Assembly: GCA_902790215.1 (NCBI GenBank) | Contig: CADAQX010000012.1 | Coordinates: 1-53,813 of the forward strand | DNA from: an uncultured Bacteroidota bacterium | GTDB taxonomy: Bacteria; Bacteroidota; Bacteroidia; Bacteroidales; P3 | Length of the DNA: 53,813 bases | Reading direction: 5' to 3' | Shown: positions 10,601 to 53,813 of the stretch, piece after piece | Numbering within the stretch: position 1 is the stretch's first letter | Layout of the letters: every line of letters starts with the position of its first letter | Made by a program: the position numbers and the translations under genes | The notes under the pieces: model-generated | Told to the model about the DNA's origin: nothing | The model's input: only the letters and a program-made list of their open reading frames with translations | Databases searched by the model: none

Positions 10601-10690
10601 AGGGTTAAAAGGTTTAAAGGTTTAAGGGTTTAAGGGTTTGATACACTAAAACCTTAAAACCATAAAACTTTCCTCCCCTAAAACCTTAAA
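10601..10690. repeat. Inverted short-period repeat element E1 (octamer arms)
   Basis: The left arm has consecutive 8-mers GGTTAAAA, GGTTTAAA, GGTTTAAG, GGTTTAAG from 10603 to 10634. The right arm (about 10647-10690) has the inverse type (CCTTAAAACC, CTAAAACCTTAAA) with looser spacing. The core between them is only GATACACT. The element lies between the RHH start and the DUF2723 stop codon (10691-10693), which it touches. Confidence 0.8.
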
Positions 10691-16337: not shown

Positions 16338-16366
16338 CGACTTTTTTTTGATTTATCGTGTTTTTT

Positions 16367-16542
16367 GAATGTTTGAATGTGTAAATGCTTGAATGCTTGA
16401 ATGCTTAAATGTGTGAATGTGTAAATGTAAGATGTTGATATGTTGATACGTTGATATGATACGAGTCGTATAAACTTATCAACTTATCAACGGACAACGA
16501 ATTAAAATAATCAAGCAATCAGACAATCAGGCAATCAACAGG
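16367..16542. repeat. Inverted short-period repeat element E2 (nested octamer arms)
   Basis: The left arm is eight consecutive 8-mers from 16367 to 16430 (GAATGTTT, GAATGTGT, AAATGCTT, GAATGCTT twice, AAATGTGT, GAATGTGT, AAATGTAA). The middle (16431-16490) holds a second inverted pair, GTTGATA repeats against TTATCAAC repeats, around the palindrome ATACGAGTCGTAT. The right arm (16511-16542) is TCAAGCAA, TCAGACAA, TCAGGCAA, TCAACAGG. The right end lies next to the stop codon of the DPP IV gene (16544). Confidence 0.8.
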
Positions 16543-18718: not shown

Positions 18719-18746
18719 GAGAATGGGTCTAATGTTTTTAAGAATT

Positions 18747-18834
18747 GAAAAGTGAAAAGTGAAAAGTGAAAATGGCTGGCGCACCACTTGTCAACAAATT
18801 ATTCATTTTTCACTTTTCACCTTTCACTTTATAA
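18747..18834. repeat. Inverted short-period repeat element E3 (heptamer arms)
   Basis: Left arm: GAAAAGT three times then GAAAATG (18747-18774). Right arm: TTTTCAC twice then CTTTCAC (18807-18827), the inverse of the left. The core of about 32 bp starts with GCTGGCGCA (18775-18783), a motif shared with E5, E7 and the four-helix-bundle cassette. The right arm ends within about 10 bp of the pckA stop codon (18836-18838). Confidence 0.88.
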
Positions 18835-20449: not shown

Positions 20450-20470
20450 AATGTATAATGTTTTTAAACT

Positions 20471-20600
20471 CGTTAATTCGTTAATTCGTTAATTCGTTAG
20501 TCAAGGACTCACACATTCTGAACTCGTTAATTCGTAAATGTGTTAATTCGTAAATCGACTAACACATTAACACATTCACACGTTTACACATTCATTCATT
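20471..20600. repeat. Inverted short-period repeat element E4 (octamer arms)
   Basis: Left arm: CGTTAATT three times then CGTTAGTC (20471-20502). After about 22 bp a second tract runs CGTTAATT, CGTAAATG, TGTTAATT, CGTAAATC (20525-20556), then turns into the inverse series GACTAACA, CATTAACA, CATTCACA, CGTTTACA, CATTCATT (20557-20596). The core around 20489-20520, read in reverse complement, matches the core of E8. The right arm runs across the stop codon of the hydrogenase gene (20592-20594). Confidence 0.82.
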
Positions 20601-22043
20601 CATGGTCATTTTGTATAATCTGACGGAGCCGTCGATATTCTTTTCTTTGGCCGAGTTGCCGTATTTGTCGACATCGAACACATTGCGAGGTGAACGGGTG
20701 ATGCTGAGAGGACCACCGACACAGCCCCCATCGCAGGCCATGCCTTCGAAGAAGTTGGCAGTCTCTTTCTTTGCGCGTAGCAGTGTCAGATGCTGGCGGC
20801 ACTGGTCGATGCCGTTCATAACACAAGGTTTCACTCCTTCCACGCCAAGAGATTTGGCCACATCGGCCACACCCAACGCCAGACCGCCGCTCTTGGCGAA
20901 GATTCGGCCGTAGAAGGAGGCATTGTCAAGAATGGTGTCCTCACACTGGGTGGTGTCGATACCCCGTGCATCGACAAAGGCCTGCAGCTCTTCGAAACTC
21001 ATCACGCTGTCAATCATGCCACCTGTTTTCTCAAGGGTGTATTCCATTTTCTTTGCCGCACAGGGGCCGATGAAGACCACTTTGGCCGTGGGGTCACTGT
21101 GTTTGATGAGTTTGGCAGTCATCACCATGGGCGACACCGATGAGGAGATGGCATCTTTCAGCTCGGGGAAGTTTGTCTCGACAAAACGCACAAAGGCCGG
21201 GCAGCAAGAGGTGGTCATCACGGGGTTCTCGCAGTTTTCGGCTTTCTCTTTGAACTCGTGCGCCTCGTTGTAGAGGGTGATGTCGGCACCCAGGGCTGCT
21301 TCTACAACCTGGTGGAATCCCAGCTTCTTGATGGCTGTAACTACCTGCTCGATGCGGCCGAAACGGCATTGGCTGACGATGGCGGGAGCGATGACAGCAT
21401 AGCAGCGATAGCGGGTGTTGTTCTCTGACTCCTTCAACATCTTGATGATGTCGAGTACCAGACTCTTGTCGCTGATAGCACCAAAGGGGCAGCTGACGAT
21501 GCAGGCTCCGCAGGCAATGCACTTGTTGTTGTCGATTACGGCTTTGTCTTCATCATTGATGCTGATAGCTTTCACTTTGCAGCTCTTGATGCAGGGGCGT
21601 TTCTGTGCAATGATGGCACTGTAGGGGCACACTGAGGCACACTTGCCGCATTCTATACATTTCGTTTTGTCGATAAAGCAGCGATGGTCAACAATGGTGA
21701 TGGCATCTTTGGGGCACACCTCCTTGCATGAGTGCATGAGACAACCACGGCACACGTCGGTGACTATCATGCCGCCGGCGGGACATTCGTCACAAGCCTC
21801 GTAAAGCACTTCCACAACATTGGGGTTCTCCTTGTCGCCGCCCATGGCCATCTGTACACGGTCCATAAGCACGGCACGTTCTTTGTGGATACAGCAGCGA
21901 GTGTCGGCCTTTGGCCCCGGAGCAATGGTGCGAGGGATGGTGTAGGCATTCTCCAGCCCGCCTTCATAAGCCCGGCGGATGACCTCCATCAGGACTTGGT
22001 ATTTAATCCATTGTACGTTAGTATCGAATAGTTTCTGTTCCAT
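20592..22043 (-). CDS. [FeFe] hydrogenase catalytic-domain protein (group B-like)
   Basis: A 483-residue protein with several 4Fe-4S ligand motifs (cysteine clusters near 98-111, 129-139, 151-155 and 175-185) followed by the H-cluster domain. The H-cluster motifs are TSCCPAF (about 278-284), IGPCAAKK (about 325-332) and MACDGGCVGGP (about 436-446), so all four H-cluster cysteines are present. This arrangement fits the little-studied group B/monomeric hydrogenases; H2 production or sensing is inferred. The ATG at 22043 lies 2 bp after the SpoIIE stop. The last codons (MNE, stop) are written in the octamer repeats of element E4. Confidence 0.85.
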   Translation of the reverse strand: MEQKLFDTNVQWIKYQVLMEVIRRAYEGGLENAYTIPRTIAPGPKADTRCCIHKERAVLMDRVQMAMGGDKENPNVVEVLYEACDECPAGGMIVTDVCRGCLMHSCKEVCPKDAITIVDHRCFIDKTKCIECGKCASVCPYSAIIAQKRPCIKSCKVKAISINDEDKAVIDNNKCIACGACIVSCPFGAISDKSLVLDIIKMLKESENNTRYRCYAVIAPAIVSQCRFGRIEQVVTAIKKLGFHQVVEAALGADITLYNEAHEFKEKAENCENPVMTTSCCPAFVRFVETNFPELKDAISSSVSPMVMTAKLIKHSDPTAKVVFIGPCAAKKMEYTLEKTGGMIDSVMSFEELQAFVDARGIDTTQCEDTILDNASFYGRIFAKSGGLALGVADVAKSLGVEGVKPCVMNGIDQCRQHLTLLRAKKETANFFEGMACDGGCVGGPLSITRSPRNVFDVDKYGNSAKEKNIDGSVRLYKMTMNE

Positions 22044-44043: not shown

Positions 44044-44130
44044 GGAGAGGTGCCGGAGTGGTCGAACGGGGCGGTCTCGAAAACCGTTGACCAGCTTGCT
44101 GGTCCCAGGGTTCGAATCCCTGCCTCTCCG
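44044..44130 (+). tRNA. tRNA-Ser (CGA)
   Basis: Acceptor arm GGAGAGG pairs with CCTCTCC; the anticodon loop CTCGAAA gives anticodon CGA (reads UCG). A long variable arm (GACCAGCTTGCTGGTC) and the T-loop GGTTCGAATCCC are typical of serine tRNA. Discriminator G; no CCA is encoded. Confidence 0.97.
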
Positions 44131-44373: not shown

Positions 44374-44447
44374 TACCGCATACCAGAGTCGAACTGGTGA
44401 TCTACTGCGTGAGAGGCAGTTGTCCTGGACCACTAGACGAATGCGGC
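44374..44447 (-). tRNA. tRNA-Glu (CTC)
   Basis: On the minus strand, acceptor GCCGCAT pairs with ATGCGGT (one G-U), the D-arm region reads TCGTCTAGTGG, and the anticodon loop CTCTCAC gives anticodon CTC (reads GAG). T-arm CCAGTTCGACTCTGG. Seventy-four nucleotides; no encoded CCA. Confidence 0.97.
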
Positions 44448-44883: not shown

Positions 44884-45205
44884 TGCCGCTTCGCGCATAA
44901 TTTACTTTATTTTCTGTGAGGGATTACGCCATCTTTCGCCACCTTTCGCCAGTGTTCCGATAATGTCGTATATCTGTCCCCAACATAAAAATTGAAAATT
45001 GAAAGTTGAAAGTTGCTGTCGCACCCGGATAATTCTCAACTCTCAACTTTCAACTCACAACTTTCAACTCTCAACTTTCTATGTTTGATGTTACGTCGTT
45101 CTTTATCCTATCTTTTTTCGTTATGTTTCCCTCATTTTTCCCTTTGTGAAACGGAGAAAGAGTGGAAAACGATCGAATAACGAGCGAATAAATGACGGCG
45201 CCTGA
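44884..45205 (+). repeat. About 245-bp dispersed repeat, copy B (interrupted)
   Basis: Aligns with copy A (30336-30580, opposite strand). The best part is 45093-45197, including a segment ending GTTTCCCTCATTTTTCCC and the near-repeat GATCGAATAACGAGCGAAT. Between 44991 and 45079 it is interrupted by element E7, where copy A has an unrelated stretch of about 25 bp. Confidence 0.78.
44991..45079. repeat. Inverted short-period repeat element E7 (heptamer arms)
   Basis: Left arm ATTGAAA, ATTGAAA, GTTGAAA (44991-45011). Core GCTGTCGCA (45015-45023) then CCCGGATAAT. Right arm of six 7-mers (TCTCAAC, TCTCAAC, TTTCAAC, TCACAAC, TTTCAAC, TCTCAAC; 45034-45075). The two core segments match those next to the arms in the four-helix-bundle cassette, as if the gene had been deleted. 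It is inserted in dispersed repeat copy B. Confidence 0.88.
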
Positions 45206-45225
45206 GGGATTGATTGAAGGCGTAA

Positions 45226-45339
45226 AAGTGAAAAGTGAAAATGTGTGAATGTGTAAACGTGTTAACGTGTTAATGTGTAAGTCATTGACTAACGAATTAA
45301 CACATTTACGAATTAACGAATTCAACTCTCAACTTTCAA
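45226..45339. repeat. Inverted short-period repeat element E8 (octamer arms with heptamer flanks)
   Basis: Heptamer flanks AAAAGTG (left) and CAACTCT, CAACTTT (right) enclose octamers GTGTGAAT, GTGTAAAC, GTGTTAAC, GTGTTAAT (45243-45274) and the inverse AACGAATT, AACACATT, TACGAATT, AACGAATT (45291-45322). The core GTCATTGACTAACGAATT matches the reverse complement of the E4 core. It abuts the detached palindrome end at 45340. Confidence 0.8.
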
Positions 45340-45354
45340 CGACCGATTTGGGAT
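45340..45354 (+). repeat. Detached right end of the 197-bp palindromic element
   Basis: CGACCGATTTGGGAT, the last 15 bases of the 197-bp element with the same GGGAT ending as copy 2, again running into the A-tract of a terminator. Confidence 0.7.
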
Positions 45355-45439: not shown

Positions 45440-46150
45440 TTACGCCATATTGTGGAAGACGTTGACCACGTCGTCGTCGTTTTCGAGACGCTCGATGAGT
45501 CCATTGACATCTTCCTGCTCTTCGGGCGAGAGTTCGCGCATGGTGAGGGGGATACGCTCGAATTTGAAAGACTTGATTTCAAACCCTTTATCCTCAAGAA
45601 ACTTGGAGATGGGTCCGTAGTTCTTGAAGTCGGCGTAGATCATGATTTCGTCTTCATCGCGGAACACTTCGTCGATGTCGTAGTCGATAAGCTCAAGCTC
45701 CAGTTCGTCCATATCGGTGCCTTCTTTGTAGGCGACGACGAAGGAGCATTTGCGCTCGAAGAGGAAGTCGTTCATGCCCATGGTGCCCAGCTCTCCCTTG
45801 CCGCGTACAAAGGCGGCACGGATGTTGGCAACGGTGCGGGTGGGATTGTCGGTGGCCGTTTCGACGACGAAGGCGGTGCCGTGGGGGCCTTTGCCGTCGT
45901 ATACGACTTCTTTGTAGGCCGACTTGTCTTTCTCGGTGGCACGCTTGATGGCGCGCTCGACATTCTCCTTGGGCATGCTCTCGCTCTTGGCGGTGGCCAT
46001 GAGCAGACGAAGACGGAGGTTGCTGGAGGGGTCGGGACCGCCGGCAATGACGGCCAACTCAATTTCTTTTCCAATCTTGGTGAACGTGCGGGCCATGTGA
46101 CCCCAACGTTTCAGTTTACGTGCTTTACGGTATTCAAACGCTCTACCCAT
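45440..46150 (-). CDS. yebC: YebC/PmpR-family translation or transcription factor
   Basis: A 236-residue protein of the YebC family in the Bacteroidetes form (start MGRAFEYRKARKLKRWGHMA). The helical N-terminal domain (about 1-75) is followed by two alpha/beta domains, with YDGKGPHGTAFVVETATDN (about 82-100). YebC proteins have been reported as DNA-binding regulators and, more recently, as factors that help ribosomes at difficult sequences; which applies here is unknown. Its 5-prime untranslated region contains the heptamer arm at 46158-46185, only 8 bp from the ATG. Confidence 0.95.
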   Translation of the reverse strand: MGRAFEYRKARKLKRWGHMARTFTKIGKEIELAVIAGGPDPSSNLRLRLLMATAKSESMPKENVERAIKRATEKDKSAYKEVVYDGKGPHGTAFVVETATDNPTRTVANIRAAFVRGKGELGTMGMNDFLFERKCSFVVAYKEGTDMDELELELIDYDIDEVFRDEDEIMIYADFKNYGPISKFLEDKGFEIKSFKFERIPLTMRELSPEEQEDVNGLIERLENDDDVVNVFHNMA

Positions 46151-46157
46151 AATGTGT

Positions 46158-46630
46158 GAATTGAGAATTGAGAATTGAGAATTGAGACCTATCAGGTTGG
46201 AATCCTCAACTCAATTCGAGGTTAATATTCGTTTTTATTCTATTCTTGCTGGTTTTTATAACTGATGTGAGCATGGATATCAGTTCATCCACATCGGTGT
46301 TTATTGAAATGTATTCTTCCTCGGTAAAATAATCAGTATGAAATAAAAGTTCAAACCAGTATTGTGTCTCGTCAGCTTCTTTCAAAGCGATGGACATTTT
46401 ACTGATAAAATCTGCCGGACTCTGCGCATTTCTGCTTTCACGGATATTAGCACCAATGCTGGTGCCACTCCTTAGCAATTGTTTACTCAGTACAAACTCT
46501 TTTTTTTCGGTGGTCAAGTATTTATATAGATTGACACAGCGAATAGCAAATGCCATGCTTTTTGAATATAAGATATTGTCTTTCATAAACGCGTCAGCTC
46601 TCTCAATTCTCAATTCTCAATTCTCAATTT
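46158..46630 (-). mobile_element. Four-helix-bundle cassette bounded by inverted heptamer arms (E9)
   Basis: The left arm is GAATTGA four times (46158-46185); the right arm is TCAATTC three times plus TCAATTT (46603-46630), the exact inverse. Between them is one gene for a four-helix-bundle protein. The motif GCTGACGCG (minus strand, 46598-46590) lies between the right arm and the start codon. The right arm spans the sulP stop codon, so the last SulP residues (LRIEN) are written in heptamers. No transposase, integrase or target duplication is seen; movement is inferred from the relatives without a gene. Confidence 0.8.
46206..46586 (-). CDS. Four-helix-bundle protein (S23/IVP family, Avd-like)
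   Basis: A 126-residue helical protein starting MKDNILYSKSMAFAIR. The conserved segments EFVLSKQLLRSGTSIGANIRE (about 29-49, quoted in two parts in the family as KQLLRSG and SIGANIRE), ALKEADETQYWFELL (about 67-81) and SVIKTSKNR (near the end) identify the four-helix-bundle family first known from intervening sequences in 23S rRNA and related in fold to the Avd accessory protein of diversity-generating retroelements. Known members bind nucleic acid. The ATG at 46586 was chosen; a longer frame would start in the heptamer arm. No reverse transcriptase is nearby. Confidence 0.88.
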   Translation of the reverse strand: MKDNILYSKSMAFAIRCVNLYKYLTTEKKEFVLSKQLLRSGTSIGANIRESRNAQSPADFISKMSIALKEADETQYWFELLFHTDYFTEEEYISINTDVDELISMLTSVIKTSKNRIKTNINLELS

Positions 46631-48358
46631 AGAGAGAAATTCGGTGCATTCCTCGAAGGTTTTGAAGGTGTGCTCTTCGGGGACGACGGCGGGGATGACG
46701 TTGAGGGTGCGGAGCATGTACATGGGCTGGGGCTGGATGATGGTCATGAGCACCATGATGCCGCGCGCCTGGAGGTCTTTGATGGCGGTCTCCATGGCAT
46801 AGAGGCCGGACTGGTCCATGAAGCTGACGAGTTTCATGCGGATGATGACTACCTTGGCATCGTTGGGCACGTCTTCCATCACCTCTTTGAATTTGTTGAT
46901 GGTGCCAAAGAAGATGGGGCCATTGAGGCGCTGGATGAAGATGTGCTGGCGCATCTCGTCGGTGATGCCGCCCTCGTCGTGCCAGGGCACGGATTTGTCG
47001 AAGTTGGGCAGGCCGGGGTCTGGCAGGCCTTTGCGGATGTCGGCCGAGGTCATGGCCGAGGAGCTGTAGCCACCCTCGACCAGGTCGCTGGCGCGCTTCA
47101 TGAAGAGCACACAGGCGATAACCATGCCAATGCCCACTGCAGTGAGCAGGTCCACAAAGACGGTGATAAGGAAGACAACCACAAGCACGACGGCATCGGC
47201 CTTGGGGATTCGCAGCAGGTCTTTGAAACCCTTGAAGTCGATGATGCCCCAGCCTACTGTGATGAGGATGCCGGCAAGAACCGAAAGGGGCACGTATTTG
47301 ACCAGGCTGCCCAGGCCGAGGAGCACGGCCAGAAGGAGCAGTGCATGGACCATACCGCTTATCTGGGTGCGGCCACCGCTCTTGACATTGACAACGGTGC
47401 GCATTGTGGCGCCGGCACCGGGAAGGCCGCAGAAGAGTCCGGCGATGGCATTGCCGATACCCTGTCCGATGAGTTCCTTATTGCTGTTGTGCTTGGTTTT
47501 GGTAATGTTGTCGGCCACCACAGAGGTGAGCAGTGTGTCGATGGAGCCCAGACCGGCCAGGGTGAGACCGGGGATGACGGAGGCTTTGAGGACGGCTATC
47601 CAGTTGATGGCGGCAAAGTCAATACCTGACTTGGCAAAGACCGGCAGGGGCATGCCCGAAGGTATCTCACCGATGATGAGACGGCTGTCGAGGTTGCAGA
47701 ACAGCGATACGACAGTCATGACAATAAGTGCCACAAGGGTGGCAGGGACTTTCTTGGTGACCAGCGGGAAGAGCTCGATGATGAGAATGGTGCCGAGACC
47801 GAGCAGGAGGGCTTTGACCGAGATGCCCTGTGCCACGGCATCGGGGATGCCGAAGAGCAGGTCAATCATGGTGCCGCTGCCCTTGAGTCCCACCAACGGG
47901 TACAGCTGCTGTAGAATAATGATGACACCGATACCGCTCATGAAGCCTGACAGGACAGGATAAGGTATATAACGGATGTATTTACCCAGTTTGACGATAC
48001 CAAAGAGAATCTGGAAGAGGCCGCAGAAGATACCGGCCAGCGACATGCTGATGAGCACATCTGAAATGCTTCCGCCGCTGGAAGCCCAGATACCGCCGAT
48101 GAGTGTGGCGGTGACAACGGTCATGGGACCCGTAGGGCCGCTTATCTGGCTGTGGGTGCCGCCAAAGAGGGCGGCAAAGAAGCCCAGCATGGTGGCACCG
48201 ACGATGCCTGCCAGTGCACCCATAGAAGCTGCGGAGGGGTCGCTGACGCCTCCAAAGGCCTGAATGCCGAATGCAAGAGCCAAAGGCAGGGCCACGATGC
48301 CGGCAGTGATGCCGCCAAAGAGGTCGCCTTTGATGTTGTTGGTTTCAATGAATTTCAT
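46610..48358 (-). CDS. SulP-family anion transporter with STAS domain
   Basis: A 582-residue inner-membrane transporter with about 12 helices (about 12-430; early signature GIVALPLALAFGIQAFGG) and a C-terminal STAS domain (about 470-575, with VVIIRMKLVSFMDQSGLYAM). SulP proteins carry sulfate, bicarbonate or dicarboxylates, often with protons or sodium; substrate not resolved. The ATG at 48358 was chosen over one 15 codons upstream. The last five residues and stop lie in the heptamer arm of E9, so the original C-terminus may have been altered. Confidence 0.93.
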   Translation of the reverse strand: MKFIETNNIKGDLFGGITAGIVALPLALAFGIQAFGGVSDPSAASMGALAGIVGATMLGFFAALFGGTHSQISGPTGPMTVVTATLIGGIWASSGGSISDVLISMSLAGIFCGLFQILFGIVKLGKYIRYIPYPVLSGFMSGIGVIIILQQLYPLVGLKGSGTMIDLLFGIPDAVAQGISVKALLLGLGTILIIELFPLVTKKVPATLVALIVMTVVSLFCNLDSRLIIGEIPSGMPLPVFAKSGIDFAAINWIAVLKASVIPGLTLAGLGSIDTLLTSVVADNITKTKHNSNKELIGQGIGNAIAGLFCGLPGAGATMRTVVNVKSGGRTQISGMVHALLLLAVLLGLGSLVKYVPLSVLAGILITVGWGIIDFKGFKDLLRIPKADAVVLVVVFLITVFVDLLTAVGIGMVIACVLFMKRASDLVEGGYSSSAMTSADIRKGLPDPGLPNFDKSVPWHDEGGITDEMRQHIFIQRLNGPIFFGTINKFKEVMEDVPNDAKVVIIRMKLVSFMDQSGLYAMETAIKDLQARGIMVLMTIIQPQPMYMLRTLNVIPAVVPEEHTFKTFEECTEFLSKLRIEN

Positions 48359-48413
48359 ATAAATAATTGTTTGTCTGTTTTTATCACATGAGTATCGGGT
48401 CAAAAACGAGGTG

Positions 48414-48454: not shown

Positions 48455-51400
48455 CTATTTTTTAATTACCCTGCGGATTGTGGAGCCCTGCGGCAGGGAG
48501 ATTCGCAGGGTGTAGCTGCCCGAGGGCAGCGAGGAGAGGTCGATTCGGTTGGTTGCCGTATGGACGGCGGCGGTACGGCCCAGGAAGTCGTATATCTCCA
48601 CTTTCAGCACTTCATCGGAGGAGATGGTGATGTAGCCTGCCGTAGGGTTGGGATAGACTGTGATGTCGTCTAGACCTGCCACGGGGTCAACCCCCTGTTC
48701 GGGTATGATGGTGAGCACAAGCAGCACGATGCTGTCGCACCCTTCGGAGGTTGTACCTTGGAAGGTGTATTCGCCGCTCTCGGTATATGTCGTGCCGTTC
48801 CAGTTGTAGCTGTCGCGGGCTGTCTCGACAAGGGTGTCGCGCACGCTATAGTGTACGACCAAGTGGAGGCTCACGCTGCTGTCGCATCCGTGAACGCTCT
48901 GCATTGTATAGTAAGGCGTCACCGTTGATTCAGTATAGGTGTTTCCGTTCCAGCGATAGCTGTCGCAGGCGGTGTCGAAGGCCTCGAGACGGTAGGTGTC
49001 GTGGATGACAAGGTGGAGCGTGTCGACACTTGAGCACCCTTCGGCGTTGGTGTAGCTGTGGAGGTAGCTGCCTGTGGCATTGTAGCTCTGGCCATGCCAT
49101 TGGACACTGTCGCAGCTCTCCTGACTGACACTGGTATAGGTGCCGTGATTGATAGTGAGATGCAAGGTCACGGTGCTGTCGCAGCCGTAGGAGTTGGTGG
49201 TTGAAAGTTGATAGTTGGAAGTTGAAGCTGTAAAGGTGGAGTCGTGCCACGTGAGGCTGTCGCAGGCAGTGAGTGTCGCGGTGGAGGAGGAGCTGTTGTT
49301 GATGGTCAAGTGCAGAGCCACGGTGCTGTCGCAGCCGTAGGAGTTGGTGGTTGAAAGTTGATAGTTGGAAGTTGAAGCTGTGAAAGTGGAGTCGTGCCAT
49401 GTGAGGCTGTCGCAGACAGCGAGTGTCTCAACGGTGGAGGAACTGTGGTTCACGGTCAGGTGCAGGTTCACAATGCTGTCGCAGCCCTGAGAGTTGAAGG
49501 TGGAGTACTGCGGTGTGGCTGTTGTTTCCGTATAGGTGGTGCCATGCCAGGTGAGGCTGTCGCACACGACATGGGACTCCATTCCTGTGCTACCATGACG
49601 GACAGACAGGTGCAGGGACACCACGCTGTCGCATCCGGCGGCATTGGCCAGGAGGCAGGTCGGCGTGGTGGTGCTGGCCGTGTAGGTCTGTCCATGCCAG
49701 GTGAGGCTGTCGCAAACATTCTGGACATCCACATAGGAGGAGCTGCTGTTGATGGTCAGGTAGAGCGTGTCGACATTGGTGCAATTGGAATACACACCGT
49801 GATTATAGGTATAGACTCCCGTAGCGGTATAGACCTGTCCATTCCAGCTGTAGCCGTCGCATGCCAACACATAATAGGAGGTGTCGTGCTGCGTGCTGAC
49901 GGTGAGATGCAGGGTGTCGGTGCTGGCGCAGCCCCATGTATTATTATAGTCGTAGGTGTAAGTGCCGTCGGCTGTATAGGTCTGCCCATGCCATGTGAGG
50001 CTGTCGCACGCCACCTGGTGGTAGCTGTTGTATGTGCTCGGGTTGATGGTGAGATTCAGATTGACCGTGCTGTCGCACCCATGGCTTGTCTGGGATACAA
50101 AGACCGGCATGGATGTGCTGGCGGTATAGACAATGCCAAACCACGTGTATTCATTACATGCTGTCACCGACTGGGTGACATATTGCGAATAGTTGATGGT
50201 AAGGTGGAGCGTCACCACACTGTCGCAGCCTGTCGCATTCTGTGTAGTATAGGTCGGTGTGTTGGTGGATGAAGTGTAGGTTGCGCCATGCCAGGAATAC
50301 TGGTCGCAAGCCGTCTGAGTCTCGACCCCCGTGCTGCTTTGATTGATTGTCAGGTGGAGGGTGACCACACTGTCGCAGCCCACGGCGTTATGCTCCACAT
50401 AGGTGGGGGTTGAAGTTGTGGCGGTGTAGGTGATGCCATGCCAGGTGTAGTAGTCGCATGCCGACTGGGTCTCCACACCGGTGTTGCTGTGGTTGATTGT
50501 GAGGTGCAGTGTCACCACGCTATCGCAGCCCAGGGCATTCTGCTCAGCATAGGTGGGGGTGGTAGTTGAAACCGTGTAGGTCGTGCCGTGCCAGGTGAAC
50601 TGGTCACAGGCTGTGCGGGTATCAACCCCCGTATTGCTATGGTTGACCGTGAGGTGCAGGGTCACCACACTGTCGCAGCCCAGGCTGTTCTGCTCGGTAT
50701 AGGTCGGGGTGGTCGTGCTGGAGGTGTAAGTGGTGCCATGCCACGTGAAGTGGTCGCATGCCGTTTGGTTGTCCACCCCAGTGTTGCTGCGGTTTACGGT
50801 CAGGTGCAGGGTCACCACGCTGTCACAGCCGTGCACGTTCTGCTCGGTAAATGTAGGAGTATTTGTAGATGCCGTGTAGGTTACGCCGTGCCATGTGTAT
50901 TGGTCGCAGGCGGTCTGGCTGTACACACCGGTGTTGCTGTTGTTGATGGTGAGGTGCAGGGTCACCACACTGTCGCAGCCCAAGGCATTCTGTTCAGTGT
51001 AGGTGGGGGTGTTGGTGGTGGCGGTGTAGGTGGTGCCGTGCCAGGTGTATTGGTCGCAGGCGGTCTGGGATTCAATGCCCGTGTTGCTGCTGTTAATGGT
51101 CAGGTGCAGGGTCACCACACTGTCGCAGCCCGCCGCGTTGTGCTCAGTGAAGGTGGGCGTGGCAGTGGAGGAATAATAGGTGATGCCGTGCCAGGTGTAC
51201 TGGTCGCACGAGACTCGATTTTCTATACCCGTATTGCTGTGGTTGACGTTCAGGTACAGCGTGTCGACATTGGTGCATATTGAGCCCGGCTGGCTGTGGT
51301 CGTAGGTGTAGACTCCCGTGGCGGTGTAGGTCTGACCGTTCCAGTGGTATTCATCGCACACGGTGACAGTGTATGCCGTGTCGTCATGCATGCTGATGTC

Positions 51401-53813
51401 AAGATGAAGGGTGTCGGTGCTCGGGCATCCGGCCGCATTGGTGTAGTTATAGGTGTACACACCTGTGGCCGAATAATTATGCCCATGCCAGGTGTAACTT
51501 TCGCACGCATTCTGTGTGTAGCTGCCGTGAGAGCCATAGTTAACCGTCAGATGCAGTGTCACCACACTGTCGCATCCGGCGGCGTTCTGTTCGGTGAAAA
51601 TCGGTGCCTCGGTGCTGGCAGTGTAGGATACGCCGTGCCACGTGAACTGGTCACAAGCCGTCTGGGTTTCGATACCTGTATTGCTGTAGTTGACGGTCAA
51701 GTGCAGCGTCACCACGCTGTCGCACCCTGCGGCATTGGTCTCCGTAAAGGTCGGCGTGGTGGTCGAGGCGGTGTAGGTCGTTCCGTGCCATGTGTATTGG
51801 TCGCAAGAAGTCCGGGTTTCAACACCCGTGTTGCTGTAGTTGACGGTCAAGTGCAGCGTCACCACACTGTCGCACCCTGCGGCGTTGGTTTCCGTAAAGG
51901 TCGGCGTGGTGGTCGAGGCGGTGTAGGTCGTGCCATGCCATGTGTAGCTGTCGCATACGGTCTGGTTTTCCGTTCCCGTATTGCTGTAGTTGACTGTCAG
52001 GTGCAATGTCACCACGCTGTCGCAGCCAGCGGCGTTCTGCTCTGTAAAGGTCGGCGTGGCAGTGGTGGCGGTATAGGTCGTGCCATGCCATGTGTAGCTG
52101 TCGCATGCCGTCTGGTTCTCCGTCCCCGAATTGCTGTGGTTTACAGTCAGGTGCAGTGTCACCACGCTGTCGCAGCCGACGGCATTGGTTTCCGTAAAGG
52201 TAGGCGTAGTGGTCGAGGCGGTGTAGGTCGTGCCATGCCATGTGTATTGGTCGCATACCGTCTGGCTCTCCGTTCCCGTATTGCTGTAGTTGACTGTCAG
52301 GTGCAGCGTCACCACGCTGTCGCACCCCGCGGCGTTCTGCTCGGTAAAGGTCGGTGTATGCGTCGAGGAGGTAAAGGTCTGCCCATGCCAGGTGTAGCGG
52401 TCACAGGCCGTCTGGCTGTCCACTCCCGTGTTGCTGCGGTTGATTGTCAGGTGCAACGACACCACACTGTCGCAGCCGTCAACATTCTGCTCCGTGTAGG
52501 TGGGTGTTGTTGTGGAAGCCGTGTAGGTAATGCCGTGCCAGGCGAAGAAATCACAAGCCGTGTGGCTTTCCACACCCGTATTGCTATACTTGACAGTCAA
52601 ATGCAATGTCACCACACTGTCGCATCCGGCGGCATTTGTCTCGGTGTATTGGGGTTCTGTGGTGCTGGAGGTGTAGATGATGCCATGCCATGCAAAGTTG
52701 TCGCAAGCCGTCTGGATCTCAACCCCGGTGTTGCTGTGGTTGATAGTCAAATAAAGCGTGTCCACATCCGTGCAGGAAGAGCCCGGCTGGCTGTGGTCGT
52801 AGGTGTATACGCCCGAGGCAGTGTAGGTCACTCCGTTCCAGTGGTACTGGTCACAGGCGGTGATATGATATGCAGCGGCATCATGGGCACTGACATTCAG
52901 ATGTAGGGTGTCCGCACTGGCACAGCCGTCGGCATTGGTGTAGCCATAGGTGTACACGCCGCTCTCGGTATAGTCTACGCCGTGCCATGTATAAACATCA
53001 CAGGCACTTTGGCTATAACTATTATGTGTACCATAATTAACTGTCAGATTCAGGGTTACCACACTGTCGCACCCTGCGGCATTTGTCTCGGTATAGGTGG
53101 GGGTGTTGGTGCTGGCTGTATAGGTGGTGCCGTGCCAAGTATAGGCTTCGCATGCGGTCTGATTTTCCGTACCAGTGTTGCTGTAGTTGATGGTCAAGTT
53201 CAGGGTTGCCACACTGTCACACCCTGCGGCATTCGTCTCTGTGTACTGGGGTTCTGTGGTGCTGGCGGTATAGGTTATGCCATGCCAGGTGTAGGAGTCA
53301 CAGGCTGTCTGGGTCTCTGTGCCGGTGTTGCTGTAGTTGATAGTGAGGTTCAGGGTTACCACGCTGTCACAACCTGCGGCATTCGTCTCGGTGTATTGGG
53401 GTGCAGTGGTGCTGGTGGTATAGGTGGTGCCATGCCAGGTGTAGGTGTCGCATGCTGTCTGGGTCTCTGCACCGGTGTTGCTGTAGTTGATGGTCAGGTT
53501 CAGGGTTACCACACTGTCACACCCTGCGGCATTCGTCTCAATGTAGGTGGGGGTGTTGGCACTGGCGGTATACGTCGTGCCATGCCATGTGTAGGTGTCG
53601 CATGCGGTCTGGGTTTCTGTGCCGGTGTTGCTATAGTTGATGGTCAGGTTCAGGGTTACCACGCTGTCACACCCTGCGGCATTCGTCTCGGTGTAGGTGG
53701 GGGTGTTGGTGCTGGCGGTATACGTCGTGCCATGCCATGTGTAGGAGTCACAGGCTGTCTGGGTCTCTGTGCCAGTGTTGCTGTTGTTAATTGTCAGGTA
53801 CAGGGTATCAACA
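48455..53813 (-). CDS. Giant repetitive T9SS-secreted surface protein (5-prime end beyond the window)
   Basis: At least 1786 residues are visible and the frame stays open at the right edge. It consists of about 34 tandem units of 49-50 residues, each with two cysteines (ACD.YTWHG.TYTAST and GCDSVVTLHLT), then a type A T9SS sorting domain in the last about 75 residues (ITVYPNPTAGYITI to the end). The units alternate: blocks of 5, 8, 8 and 4 ordinary units are each closed by a pair of variant units (GVYTY type, with CTDVDTLYL). Many units are nearly identical in DNA, implying recent expansion. An adhesin or stalk-like surface fibre is inferred. Confidence 0.88.
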   Translation of the reverse strand, partial: VDTLYLTINNSNTGTETQTACDSYTWHGTTYTASTNTPTYTETNAAGCDSVVTLNLTINYSNTGTETQTACDTYTWHGTTYTASANTPTYIETNAAGCDSVVTLNLTINYSNTGAETQTACDTYTWHGTTYTTSTTAPQYTETNAAGCDSVVTLNLTINYSNTGTETQTACDSYTWHGITYTASTTEPQYTETNAAGCDSVATLNLTINYSNTGTENQTACEAYTWHGTTYTASTNTPTYTETNAAGCDSVVTLNLTVNYGTHNSYSQSACDVYTWHGVDYTESGVYTYGYTNADGCASADTLHLNVSAHDAAAYHITACDQYHWNGVTYTASGVYTYDHSQPGSSCTDVDTLYLTINHSNTGVEIQTACDNFAWHGIIYTSSTTEPQYTETNAAGCDSVVTLHLTVKYSNTGVESHTACDFFAWHGITYTASTTTPTYTEQNVDGCDSVVSLHLTINRSNTGVDSQTACDRYTWHGQTFTSSTHTPTFTEQNAAGCDSVVTLHLTVNYSNTGTESQTVCDQYTWHGTTYTASTTTPTFTETNAVGCDSVVTLHLTVNHSNSGTENQTACDSYTWHGTTYTATTATPTFTEQNAAGCDSVVTLHLTVNYSNTGTENQTVCDSYTWHGTTYTASTTTPTFTETNAAGCDSVVTLHLTVNYSNTGVETRTSCDQYTWHGTTYTASTTTPTFTETNAAGCDSVVTLHLTVNYSNTGIETQTACDQFTWHGVSYTASTEAPIFTEQNAAGCDSVVTLHLTVNYGSHGSYTQNACESYTWHGHNYSATGVYTYNYTNAAGCPSTDTLHLDISMHDDTAYTVTVCDEYHWNGQTYTATGVYTYDHSQPGSICTNVDTLYLNVNHSNTGIENRVSCDQYTWHGITYYSSTATPTFTEHNAAGCDSVVTLHLTINSSNTGIESQTACDQYTWHGTTYTATTNTPTYTEQNALGCDSVVTLHLTINNSNTGVYSQTACDQYTWHGVTYTASTNTPTFTEQNVHGCDSVVTLHLTVNRSNTGVDNQTACDHFTWHGTTYTSSTTTPTYTEQNSLGCDSVVTLHLTVNHSNTGVDTRTACDQFTWHGTTYTVSTTTPTYAEQNALGCDSVVTLHLTINHSNTGVETQSACDYYTWHGITYTATTSTPTYVEHNAVGCDSVVTLHLTINQSSTGVETQTACDQYSWHGATYTSSTNTPTYTTQNATGCDSVVTLHLTINYSQYVTQSVTACNEYTWFGIVYTASTSMPVFVSQTSHGCDSTVNLNLTINPSTYNSYHQVACDSLTWHGQTYTADGTYTYDYNNTWGCASTDTLHLTVSTQHDTSYYVLACDGYSWNGQVYTATGVYTYNHGVYSNCTNVDTLYLTINSSSSYVDVQNVCDSLTWHGQTYTASTTTPTCLLANAAGCDSVVSLHLSVRHGSTGMESHVVCDSLTWHGTTYTETTATPQYSTFNSQGCDSIVNLHLTVNHSSSTVETLAVCDSLTWHDSTFTASTSNYQLSTTNSYGCDSTVALHLTINNSSSSTATLTACDSLTWHDSTFTASTSNYQLSTTNSYGCDSTVTLHLTINHGTYTSVSQESCDSVQWHGQSYNATGSYLHSYTNAEGCSSVDTLHLVIHDTYRLEAFDTACDSYRWNGNTYTESTVTPYYTMQSVHGCDSSVSLHLVVHYSVRDTLVETARDSYNWNGTTYTESGEYTFQGTTSEGCDSIVLLVLTIIPEQGVDPVAGLDDITVYPNPTAGYITISSDEVLKVEIYDFLGRTAAVHTATNRIDLSSLPSGSYTLRISLPQGSTIRRVIKK

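Follow-up and report, generated by a model that had tools for sequence, protein, structure and literature searches.

A small S23 gene appears to move as a unit of ~420 bp that is capped by mirror-image stacks of a word of about seven letters, an arrangement found again in bacteria of distant phyla. Because these genes are enclosed by inverted arrays, carry arms specific to each copy, insert together with the arms as one unit, have relatives without a reading frame and are held under purifying selection, we infer that freestanding S23 genes are transposable units and share the design of the S23-coding intervening sequences (IVSs) of 23S rRNA. We assign a probability of roughly 60% to the reading that a freestanding S23 gene and its inverted arrays form a small transposable unit, with an S23 protein that would bind the arms and be needed for mobility, and with release by RNase III.

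The window, a stretch of 53,813 nucleotides from an uncultured Bacteroidota bacterium, carries such a unit between sulP and yebC (Table 1), with sulP, S23 and yebC all on the minus strand. A first-pass annotation made from the letters had described inverted heptamer arms around a single four-helix-bundle gene at this junction, and the arms indeed form one perfect 29-nt inverted repeat (46159-46187 and 46601-46629, spacing 413 nt), far exceeding chance. Some details needed adjustment. The right arm is an array, as described, with four full units instead of three plus a near copy; it supplies the final codons of SulP together with the stop (46610), as had been claimed; and the left arm lies close to the yebC start, at a measured distance from the ATG (46150) of 7 nt and not 8 bp. 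The S23 reading frame as listed (46206-46613, minus strand, 135 aa) starts at a TTG, and because this TTG (46613) sits inside the arm, the ATG at 46586 is the likelier start. In the predicted RNA fold of the minus strand of 46150-46640, the stem that closes the structure is made by the arms (-127.6 kcal/mol, z -5.0; none of 100 shuffles folds as well).

Table 1. Positions of the S23 unit, its neighbours and two arrays without a reading frame in the window.
Feature	Position	Strand	Detail
3' arm (S23 sense)	46158..46187	-	GAATTGA x4.3 on the plus strand; 7 nt before the YebC ATG
5' arm (S23 sense)	46601..46629	-	AATTGAGA repeated; TCTCAAT x4.1 on the plus strand; encodes the final SulP codons and stop
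S23 / 23S-IVP four-helix-bundle gene	46206..46586	-	126 aa from ATG 46586
Single extra inverse copy	46210..46217		CTCAATTC; adjoins the S23 stop codon; can pair with the 3' arm
yebC, downstream neighbour	45440..46150	-	
sulP-type transporter gene, upstream neighbour	46610..48403	-	
ORF-less inverted array hairpin	18746..18830		TGAAAAG units; loop word TGGCTGGCGCA at 18773-18783; similar form, putative S23 link
ORF-less inverted array pair	44988..45079		GTTGAAA / TCTCAACTTTCAAC units

As the first-pass annotation had anticipated, S23 genes are flanked by inverted arrays more often than other genes. Arms were scored as the best ungapped inverted match between both flanks (+1/-2), with a threshold of at least 14. 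In the genus, inverted arms were present at all 28 scorable S23 loci (35 given; loci were dropped for a short flank, N or a match that was too long), against 0/56 shifted windows, 5.9% of 544 permuted arm pairs and 2/28 matches in the same orientation. A larger genus set gave arms at 43/61 loci with flanks based on ORFs (permuted, 2.9% of 591; same orientation, 7/61) and at 55/62 with flanks based on the domain, the ORF-based flanks having concealed arms where a reading frame crossed an array. Inverted arms were found at 2/68 other ORFs of the genus S23 loci (1/23 among those of 80-220 aa), and in the ParE control at 1/90 ORFs of the ParE loci and 0/21 ParE genes. The excess at S23 genes (43/61 vs 3/179, Fisher 2e-29) refers to a control total that counts ParE genes beside the ORFs of those loci, with some overlap possible. 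An array in at least one flank is present at 21 of the 68 other genus ORFs; S23 genes are distinguished by the inverted, matched pair. The association extends to a sample of the phylum, where arms were found at 11 of 29 scored loci (30 given, with drops for the same reasons; shifted, 0/58; permuted, 5.6%) and, in a second scoring, at 10/30 (permuted, 3.9%). In a set drawn from many phyla, 48 of 75 scored S23 loci (80 given) had arms, compared with 1.6% of 739 permuted pairs, 0/145 shifted windows, 6/75 matches in the same orientation and 0/24 other ORFs; the titles in this set include Planctomycetes, Acidobacteria, Clostridia, Selenomonadales, Proteobacteria, SAR324, Patescibacteria, Treponema, Kiritimatiellaeota and Bacteroidota. 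Overall, other genes and shifted windows gave 0-4%, and arms permuted between loci 2-6%. S23 copy number showed no correlation with array or hairpin density in 20 genus samples of 20 kb (Spearman 0.26, p 0.27; -0.20, p 0.40).

Units and periods vary by copy, yet both arms of one copy match and one polarity is kept. The window's genome has nine PF05635 matches, and the five S23 loci scored there (L001-L005) are all enclosed by inverted arrays whose word differs from locus to locus (GTGAATT, the 8-mer GTTGATAT, GAATTGA, TTGAAAA and the 8-mer GTTAATTC; scores 16-29); the other four (L006-L009) are divergent S23-like matches in longer frames and were left out. In 40 cross-phylum loci (score at least 14, locus over 3.3 kb), the 5' arm read in the S23 sense contains TTAG in 22 cases vs CTAA in 0 and TAG in 27 vs CTA in 5, with more G than C in 37. 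About 33-35 of these 40 arms have period 7, and circular alignment of 33 period-7 units yielded TTAGTGA (G frequency 1.0, A 0.81), with an information content of 4.64 bits; the highest null values were 3.55 in 60 column shuffles and 3.79 in 40 random-strand sets. The cross-phylum consensus of the 5' arm is YYRGKNR, and the median length of paired arms is 30 nt, or about four units. In the genus, periods spread further (7 in 19 cases, 8 in 13, 9 in six, 11 in five, 10 and 6 in four each, 12 in two), and the polarity is kept, with AGT in 40 of 55 5' arms vs ACT in 6 and more G than C in 48. The window's GAATTGA falls outside YYRGKNR, as do TGAAAAG and TTCAACT of its ORF-less arrays.

The window's protein is a member of the S23 family. 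In profile searches it passed the curated scores of both PF05635 (4e-30; 104.6 bits vs 33.8) and TIGR02436 (2.8e-33; 114.4 bits vs 24), in agreement with its earlier identification as a four-helix-bundle, 23S intervening-sequence protein, and its solved relatives are 2rld (3.7e-45) and 2gsc (1e-3), the latter being XCC0516 of Xanthomonas campestris. No nuclease or transposase family was matched, the only other matches being two weaker PRK12275 hypothetical-protein models. We know of no catalytic motif for S23; across 141 S23 domains, the frequencies of Q36, N47 and E50 round to 1.0. S23 matches are present in 77/79 genomes of the genus, with up to 18 per genome, and in 157/198 genomes of the phylum sample. 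One locus of the genus (L102, G070:C7 4000-19000) holds seven S23 genes in ~11 kb. In G073, a pair of S23 genes with the same HMM score was considered as possible recent copies and rejected, as their DNA has no similarity. The gene persists under purifying selection, with pN/pS below 1 in 6/6 pairs at the sulP-yebC site (median 0.18) and in 45/45 pairs at a second genus site, next to an aminopeptidase-like gene (median 0.24).

Forms without a reading frame share sequence with the coding unit. In a large S23 clade, most of the 24 loci inspected by eye have fixed cores next to their arrays: GACAATA follows the 5' array, and CATTTGTC precedes the 3' array. The close core pair GACAATAC N0-30 CATTTGTC occurs 93 times in 29/79 genomes, and the reversed pattern 0 times. 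Arms score at least 12 in 17 of 30 core-pair loci, vs 13% permuted; at least three of the loci (L291, L294, L309) are without arrays and may be chance. Seven ORF-less copies in G070 have a similar loop, occupy different sites and differ in their arm words. None of the ORF-less cores was found in the window's genome, and G000 lacks the GACAATAC core. Several further array forms were noted. The loop word TGGCTGGCGCA was tried as an S23 core and set aside with its S23 link unproven, as it occurs 16 times vs 2 reversed in G000, but once vs 5 in G021; inspection by eye, which covered 15 of the 16, places at least ten in array hairpins, and four look coding. The TGGCTGGCGCA hairpins (L270-L285, and L269 at the G021 sulP-yebC junction) are of two arm types. 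Small GC-rich palindromes (such as CGCGCTTCGCGC and CGAGCGAAGCGAGC) are nested in the arrays of L289, L296, L304, L305, L307, L329 and L333, and ORF-less forms of G043 (L316-L327) lie within mosaics of other short repeats such as GCCGAAGGCTGCG and TTAATCTTCGATGGAAG. The window has more groups of arrays of 7-8-nt words, partly inverted and without an ORF, at 10603-10690, 16364-16537, 20470-20603 and 45224-45340. At 49192-49226 and 49342-49376, GTTGAAA arrays stand within coding repeats of a 1735-aa repeat protein (48455-53662, minus strand), as if array sequence had turned coding.

The main rival to the reading proposed here is a transposase acting in trans: the unit would be a nonautonomous transposon moved by an ordinary transposase, and S23 a passenger that, for example, binds or protects its own transcript. 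Such a role would suit a protein that matches only its own families, and ORF-less forms are abundant where S23 is scarce, G043 having 15 of them and one weak S23 match. Moreover, an ORF-less family of G006 and G037 resembles elements moved by DDE transposases, with its own fixed outer ends and a 4-bp duplication in 8/8 complete copies (13 loci given, 8 with both outer ends); these ends and duplications suggest that another enzyme may move this family. A borrowed transposase should, however, require fixed ends, whereas S23 recurs in copy-specific arms across many phyla, and the purifying selection on S23 also argues against a passenger. On this balance we regard a transposase in trans as unlikely, although it is a serious contender.

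Insertion of the arms and the gene as one unit was observed on cyanobacterial plasmids. A plasmid search with an S23 protein matched 29 records, from which 13 S23 regions were fetched. With strict flanks of 130-150 nt, 7/13 loci scored at least 14 and 6/13 scored less; with 200-nt flanks and the last 12 nt of the gene, which were included because some arms extend into the stop codon, 11/11 scored at least 15 (two near-duplicates left out), a result that has no control of its own. In plasmid C of Trichormus variabilis ATCC 29413 (L359; NC_007412, about 60338-60760), the unit lies upstream of a TrbI/VirB10 gene, and the matching stretches of Nostoc linckia NIES-25 and Nostoc carneum NIES-2107, ~96-98% identical, are without it. 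The empty site reads AAAAAGTAATTAAC and the filled site AAAAAGTAAT, 423 bp and GTAATTAAC, with a 5-bp target-site duplication, GTAAT. Both arms are within the 423-bp insertion, because it begins with AAATCAGAATTCAGAAG and ends with CTTCTTT. At the second site, in Nostoc ATCC 53789 pNsp_a (L371, compared with L379 and L380, 90-92% identical), a 413-bp unit has TTCTA on both sides, and TTCTA is present once in the empty sites (aligned sequence, by eye). At these two plasmid sites, arms and gene insert together as a 413-423-bp unit with a 5-bp duplication. The mobile unit envisaged by the first-pass annotation is thereby upheld for homologous plasmid loci; at the window's own site, the evidence is presence at 4/20 junctions, with no readable target-site duplication. 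Plasmid sites A, B and D display presence and absence of the unit and no readable duplication. Similarity between the Aulosira unit (L372) and that of T. variabilis is confined to 416 bp, the flanks being unrelated, and S23 is the only gene in the fetched plasmid units. A shortened S23 remnant was seen in Nostoc sp. C052 pC052_E (L366, near 2370-2500) at the site of the Trichormus unit. In Anabaena sp. 90 (L358) and Pseudanabaena galeata (L367), S23 is found in type I-D CRISPR operons, with cas6 on one side and cas4 on the other; the array words of the two differ, and related plasmids are without these S23 genes.

The plasmid pairs also bear on a different history, in which array hairpins existed beforehand and served as targets into which S23 genes insert. 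The genus does contain ORF-less array hairpins, and fused-core forms are readable as empty targets. This history is contradicted at two plasmid sites, whose empty versions are free of arrays and whose inserts of 423 and 413 bp contain both arms, and the phylum sample is array-poor (2 paired arrays in 380 kb, 19 samples), yet S23 copies there are armed. We consider it very improbable.

Thirty YebC loci of the genus were fetched, and sulP adjoins yebC in 20 of them. The first-pass annotation had proposed a search for empty junctions, and S23 is absent from 16/20, with gaps of 22-246 nt, and present at four (the window's own, L013, L027 and L028). The four S23 genes form one clade in a tree of 63 genus domains, branch support left aside. 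Among the filled genomes, G027 is the sister of G021, which carries an ORF-less array hairpin at the junction (L269), and G030 is the sister of G048, which has a 30-nt gap. Between L013 and L027, S23 identity (83.2%) equals that of the neighbours yebC and sulP (83.3%), which fits descent; in L028, S23 is 66-68% identical vs 85-88% for the neighbours, and the arms are different. Judged from these sequences, the history of the junction combines inheritance with loss and possibly re-insertion. Uniform vertical descent of the same gene and arms in all relatives, which the annotation had named as the contrary case, was not found, although the carriers' history looks partly vertical.

At the second genus site, S23 is present at ten loci in ten species, between an upstream gene that we take to be aminopeptidase-like and a downstream gene starting MTDVEIVLANTGE. 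The arms differ among these loci (AGTAGTTA, GAAGTTAAA, GTAGTTAAAG, AGGAGTTA), and arm pairing has a median of 19 within a locus vs 9.5 between loci, the observed sum being reached in 0 of 20000 permutations; one of the ten (L110) has no pairing in its 120-nt flanks (score 5). The arms at this orthologous site evolve in concert. Long residence with matched arms at one site in ten species would also suit an ordinary vertical gene with a stem that regulates its mRNA and with arms that co-evolve for regulation only, as would the equal identities of L013 and L027. The sporadic presence (4/20), the number of matches per genome and the insertions with duplications argue otherwise, and duplications and empty sites in particular speak against vertical inheritance as the whole story, so that it is hardly credible as such. 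That S23 genes stand by chance among slippage-made arrays filling the genus is a negligible prospect, for although 18 arrays occur in the 54 kb of the window, where 8 have an inverted partner, and single arrays also flank other ORFs, it is contradicted by the rarity of inverted pairs around other genes and shifted windows and by arms that match within, not between, loci.

The design of the unit can be compared with known systems. The S23-coding IVS of Coxiella 23S rRNA is, in the accessible part of its description, 428 nt long, with an S23p ORF, a 28-bp stem and excision by RNase III; the same excerpt reports Xanthomonas S23p to be a homopentamer and quotes transposition remnants and mobile elements as hypotheses of IVS origin (PMC4990558). 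The window's unit resembles this IVS in its S23p ORF inside terminal inverted repeats that form a stem (predicted), its length and its sporadic distribution (PMC4990558, in part). Unlike the IVS, it lies between protein genes and has copy-specific arrays of short words, and S23 unit insertions on plasmids have a 5-bp duplication. It is not inside an rRNA gene, an Rfam gathering search having returned two tRNAs only; at other S23 loci, there were 0 matches to 23S motifs in a check run without a positive control. The two tRNA genes, the only Rfam matches of the window, are at 44044-44130 (plus strand) and 44374-44447 (minus strand).

With insertion sequences the S23 units share the target-site duplications of the two plasmid sites (GTAAT, TTCTA). 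Neither the window's unit nor the fetched plasmid units encode a transposase, and the ends are inverted but copy-specific, as opposed to terminal inverted repeats of fixed sequence. REP/REPIN sequences, with their RAYT transposase, and MITEs are dispersed small hairpins with a protein-coding relative, and the ORF-less derivatives of the S23 unit likewise share cores with a coding form. These core forms are short and noncoding, as MITEs are, and the window's unit codes for S23. It also departs from REPIN/RAYT in lacking a Y1 transposase and fixed ends: the gene between the repeats is of PF05635, and the partner is a four-helix bundle. Heptamer arrays have been published as TAACTGA in Beggiatoaceae (PMC4679880, in part) and as GGGAATC in Xanthomonas and GGGGA(T/C)T in Nostoc, the Xanthomonas arrays often being inverted pairs (70 cases in Xcc) and MITE and REP being named alongside (PMC4692102, in part). 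Like the S23 arms, the arrays in these excerpts have 7-nt units, are intergenic and often contain about four units (PMC4679880, PMC4692102); the same excerpts do not mention S23 or four helix and tie the arrays to no transposable unit. Each of the literature words TAACTGA, GGGAATC, GGGGATT, GGGGACT and GTGATTA can be rotated, on one strand or the other, to match YYRGKNR, as can 10.3% of all heptamers. Avd of diversity-generating retroelements resembles PF05635 (CDD cd16375; 4DWL vs 2GSC; PMC10053308, in part), and the annotated neighbours of those plasmid S23 genes that were viewed include no reverse transcriptase and no template/variable repeats. An S23 domain is named in a figure legend of the accessible part of PMC10910872. 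No link between S23 and heptamer arrays was found in the literature searched, a set without bioRxiv and most subscription journals.

For the transposable S23 unit, we propose the following course of events. The arms belong to the unit and arrive with the S23 gene, as the cyanobacterial plasmids show. The predicted fold of the transcript joins them in a stem of ~30 bp whose loop holds the S23 coding sequence, which is the design of the IVS. By analogy with the IVS, a double-strand RNase such as RNase III may excise the unit from host transcripts, and such excision would make insertion between co-transcribed genes tolerable. The S23 pentamer probably binds the repeated polar word in the arms; we infer this from the word itself and from the near-constant companionship of S23 and arrays. 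The protein would further be needed to copy or mobilise the unit, and, as it matches no nuclease or transposase family, it perhaps presents the unit to another enzyme. Array units would turn over fast by slippage, the two arms being kept alike by foldback templating or by selection on the stem. Several results weaken this account: array density does not track S23 number, G043 is rich in ORF-less forms with a single weak S23 match, the window's word is off the consensus, the GACAATAC core is missing from G000, no more than roughly a third of the phylum loci reach the threshold, 6/13 plasmid loci stay below it with strict flanks, plasmid sites A, B and D give no readable duplication, and the G006/G037 forms, with their other ends and 4-bp duplications, may have a different mover.

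A bolder version, which we advance tentatively and at less than even odds, is that an S23 pentamer without a nuclease of known type reads the polar arrays as RNA or single-stranded DNA, drives its own insertion and remakes the ends. IVSs, ORF-less hairpins and the arrays of Beggiatoaceae, Xanthomonas, Nostoc and Helicobacter would then be its products, and arms of ~30 nt would perhaps offer one heptamer per subunit. If true, this version would add a new class to the transposable elements of bacteria.

S23 genes are common, their role is unknown, and the link to arrays together with clean insertions describes how the family behaves in genomes. It also brings an older idea, that IVSs are mobile elements (PMC4990558, in part), within reach of a direct test at named plasmid loci. 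The link between S23 and arrays further offers an origin for the heptamer arrays reported in several phyla, and may account for repeats that were long a puzzle.
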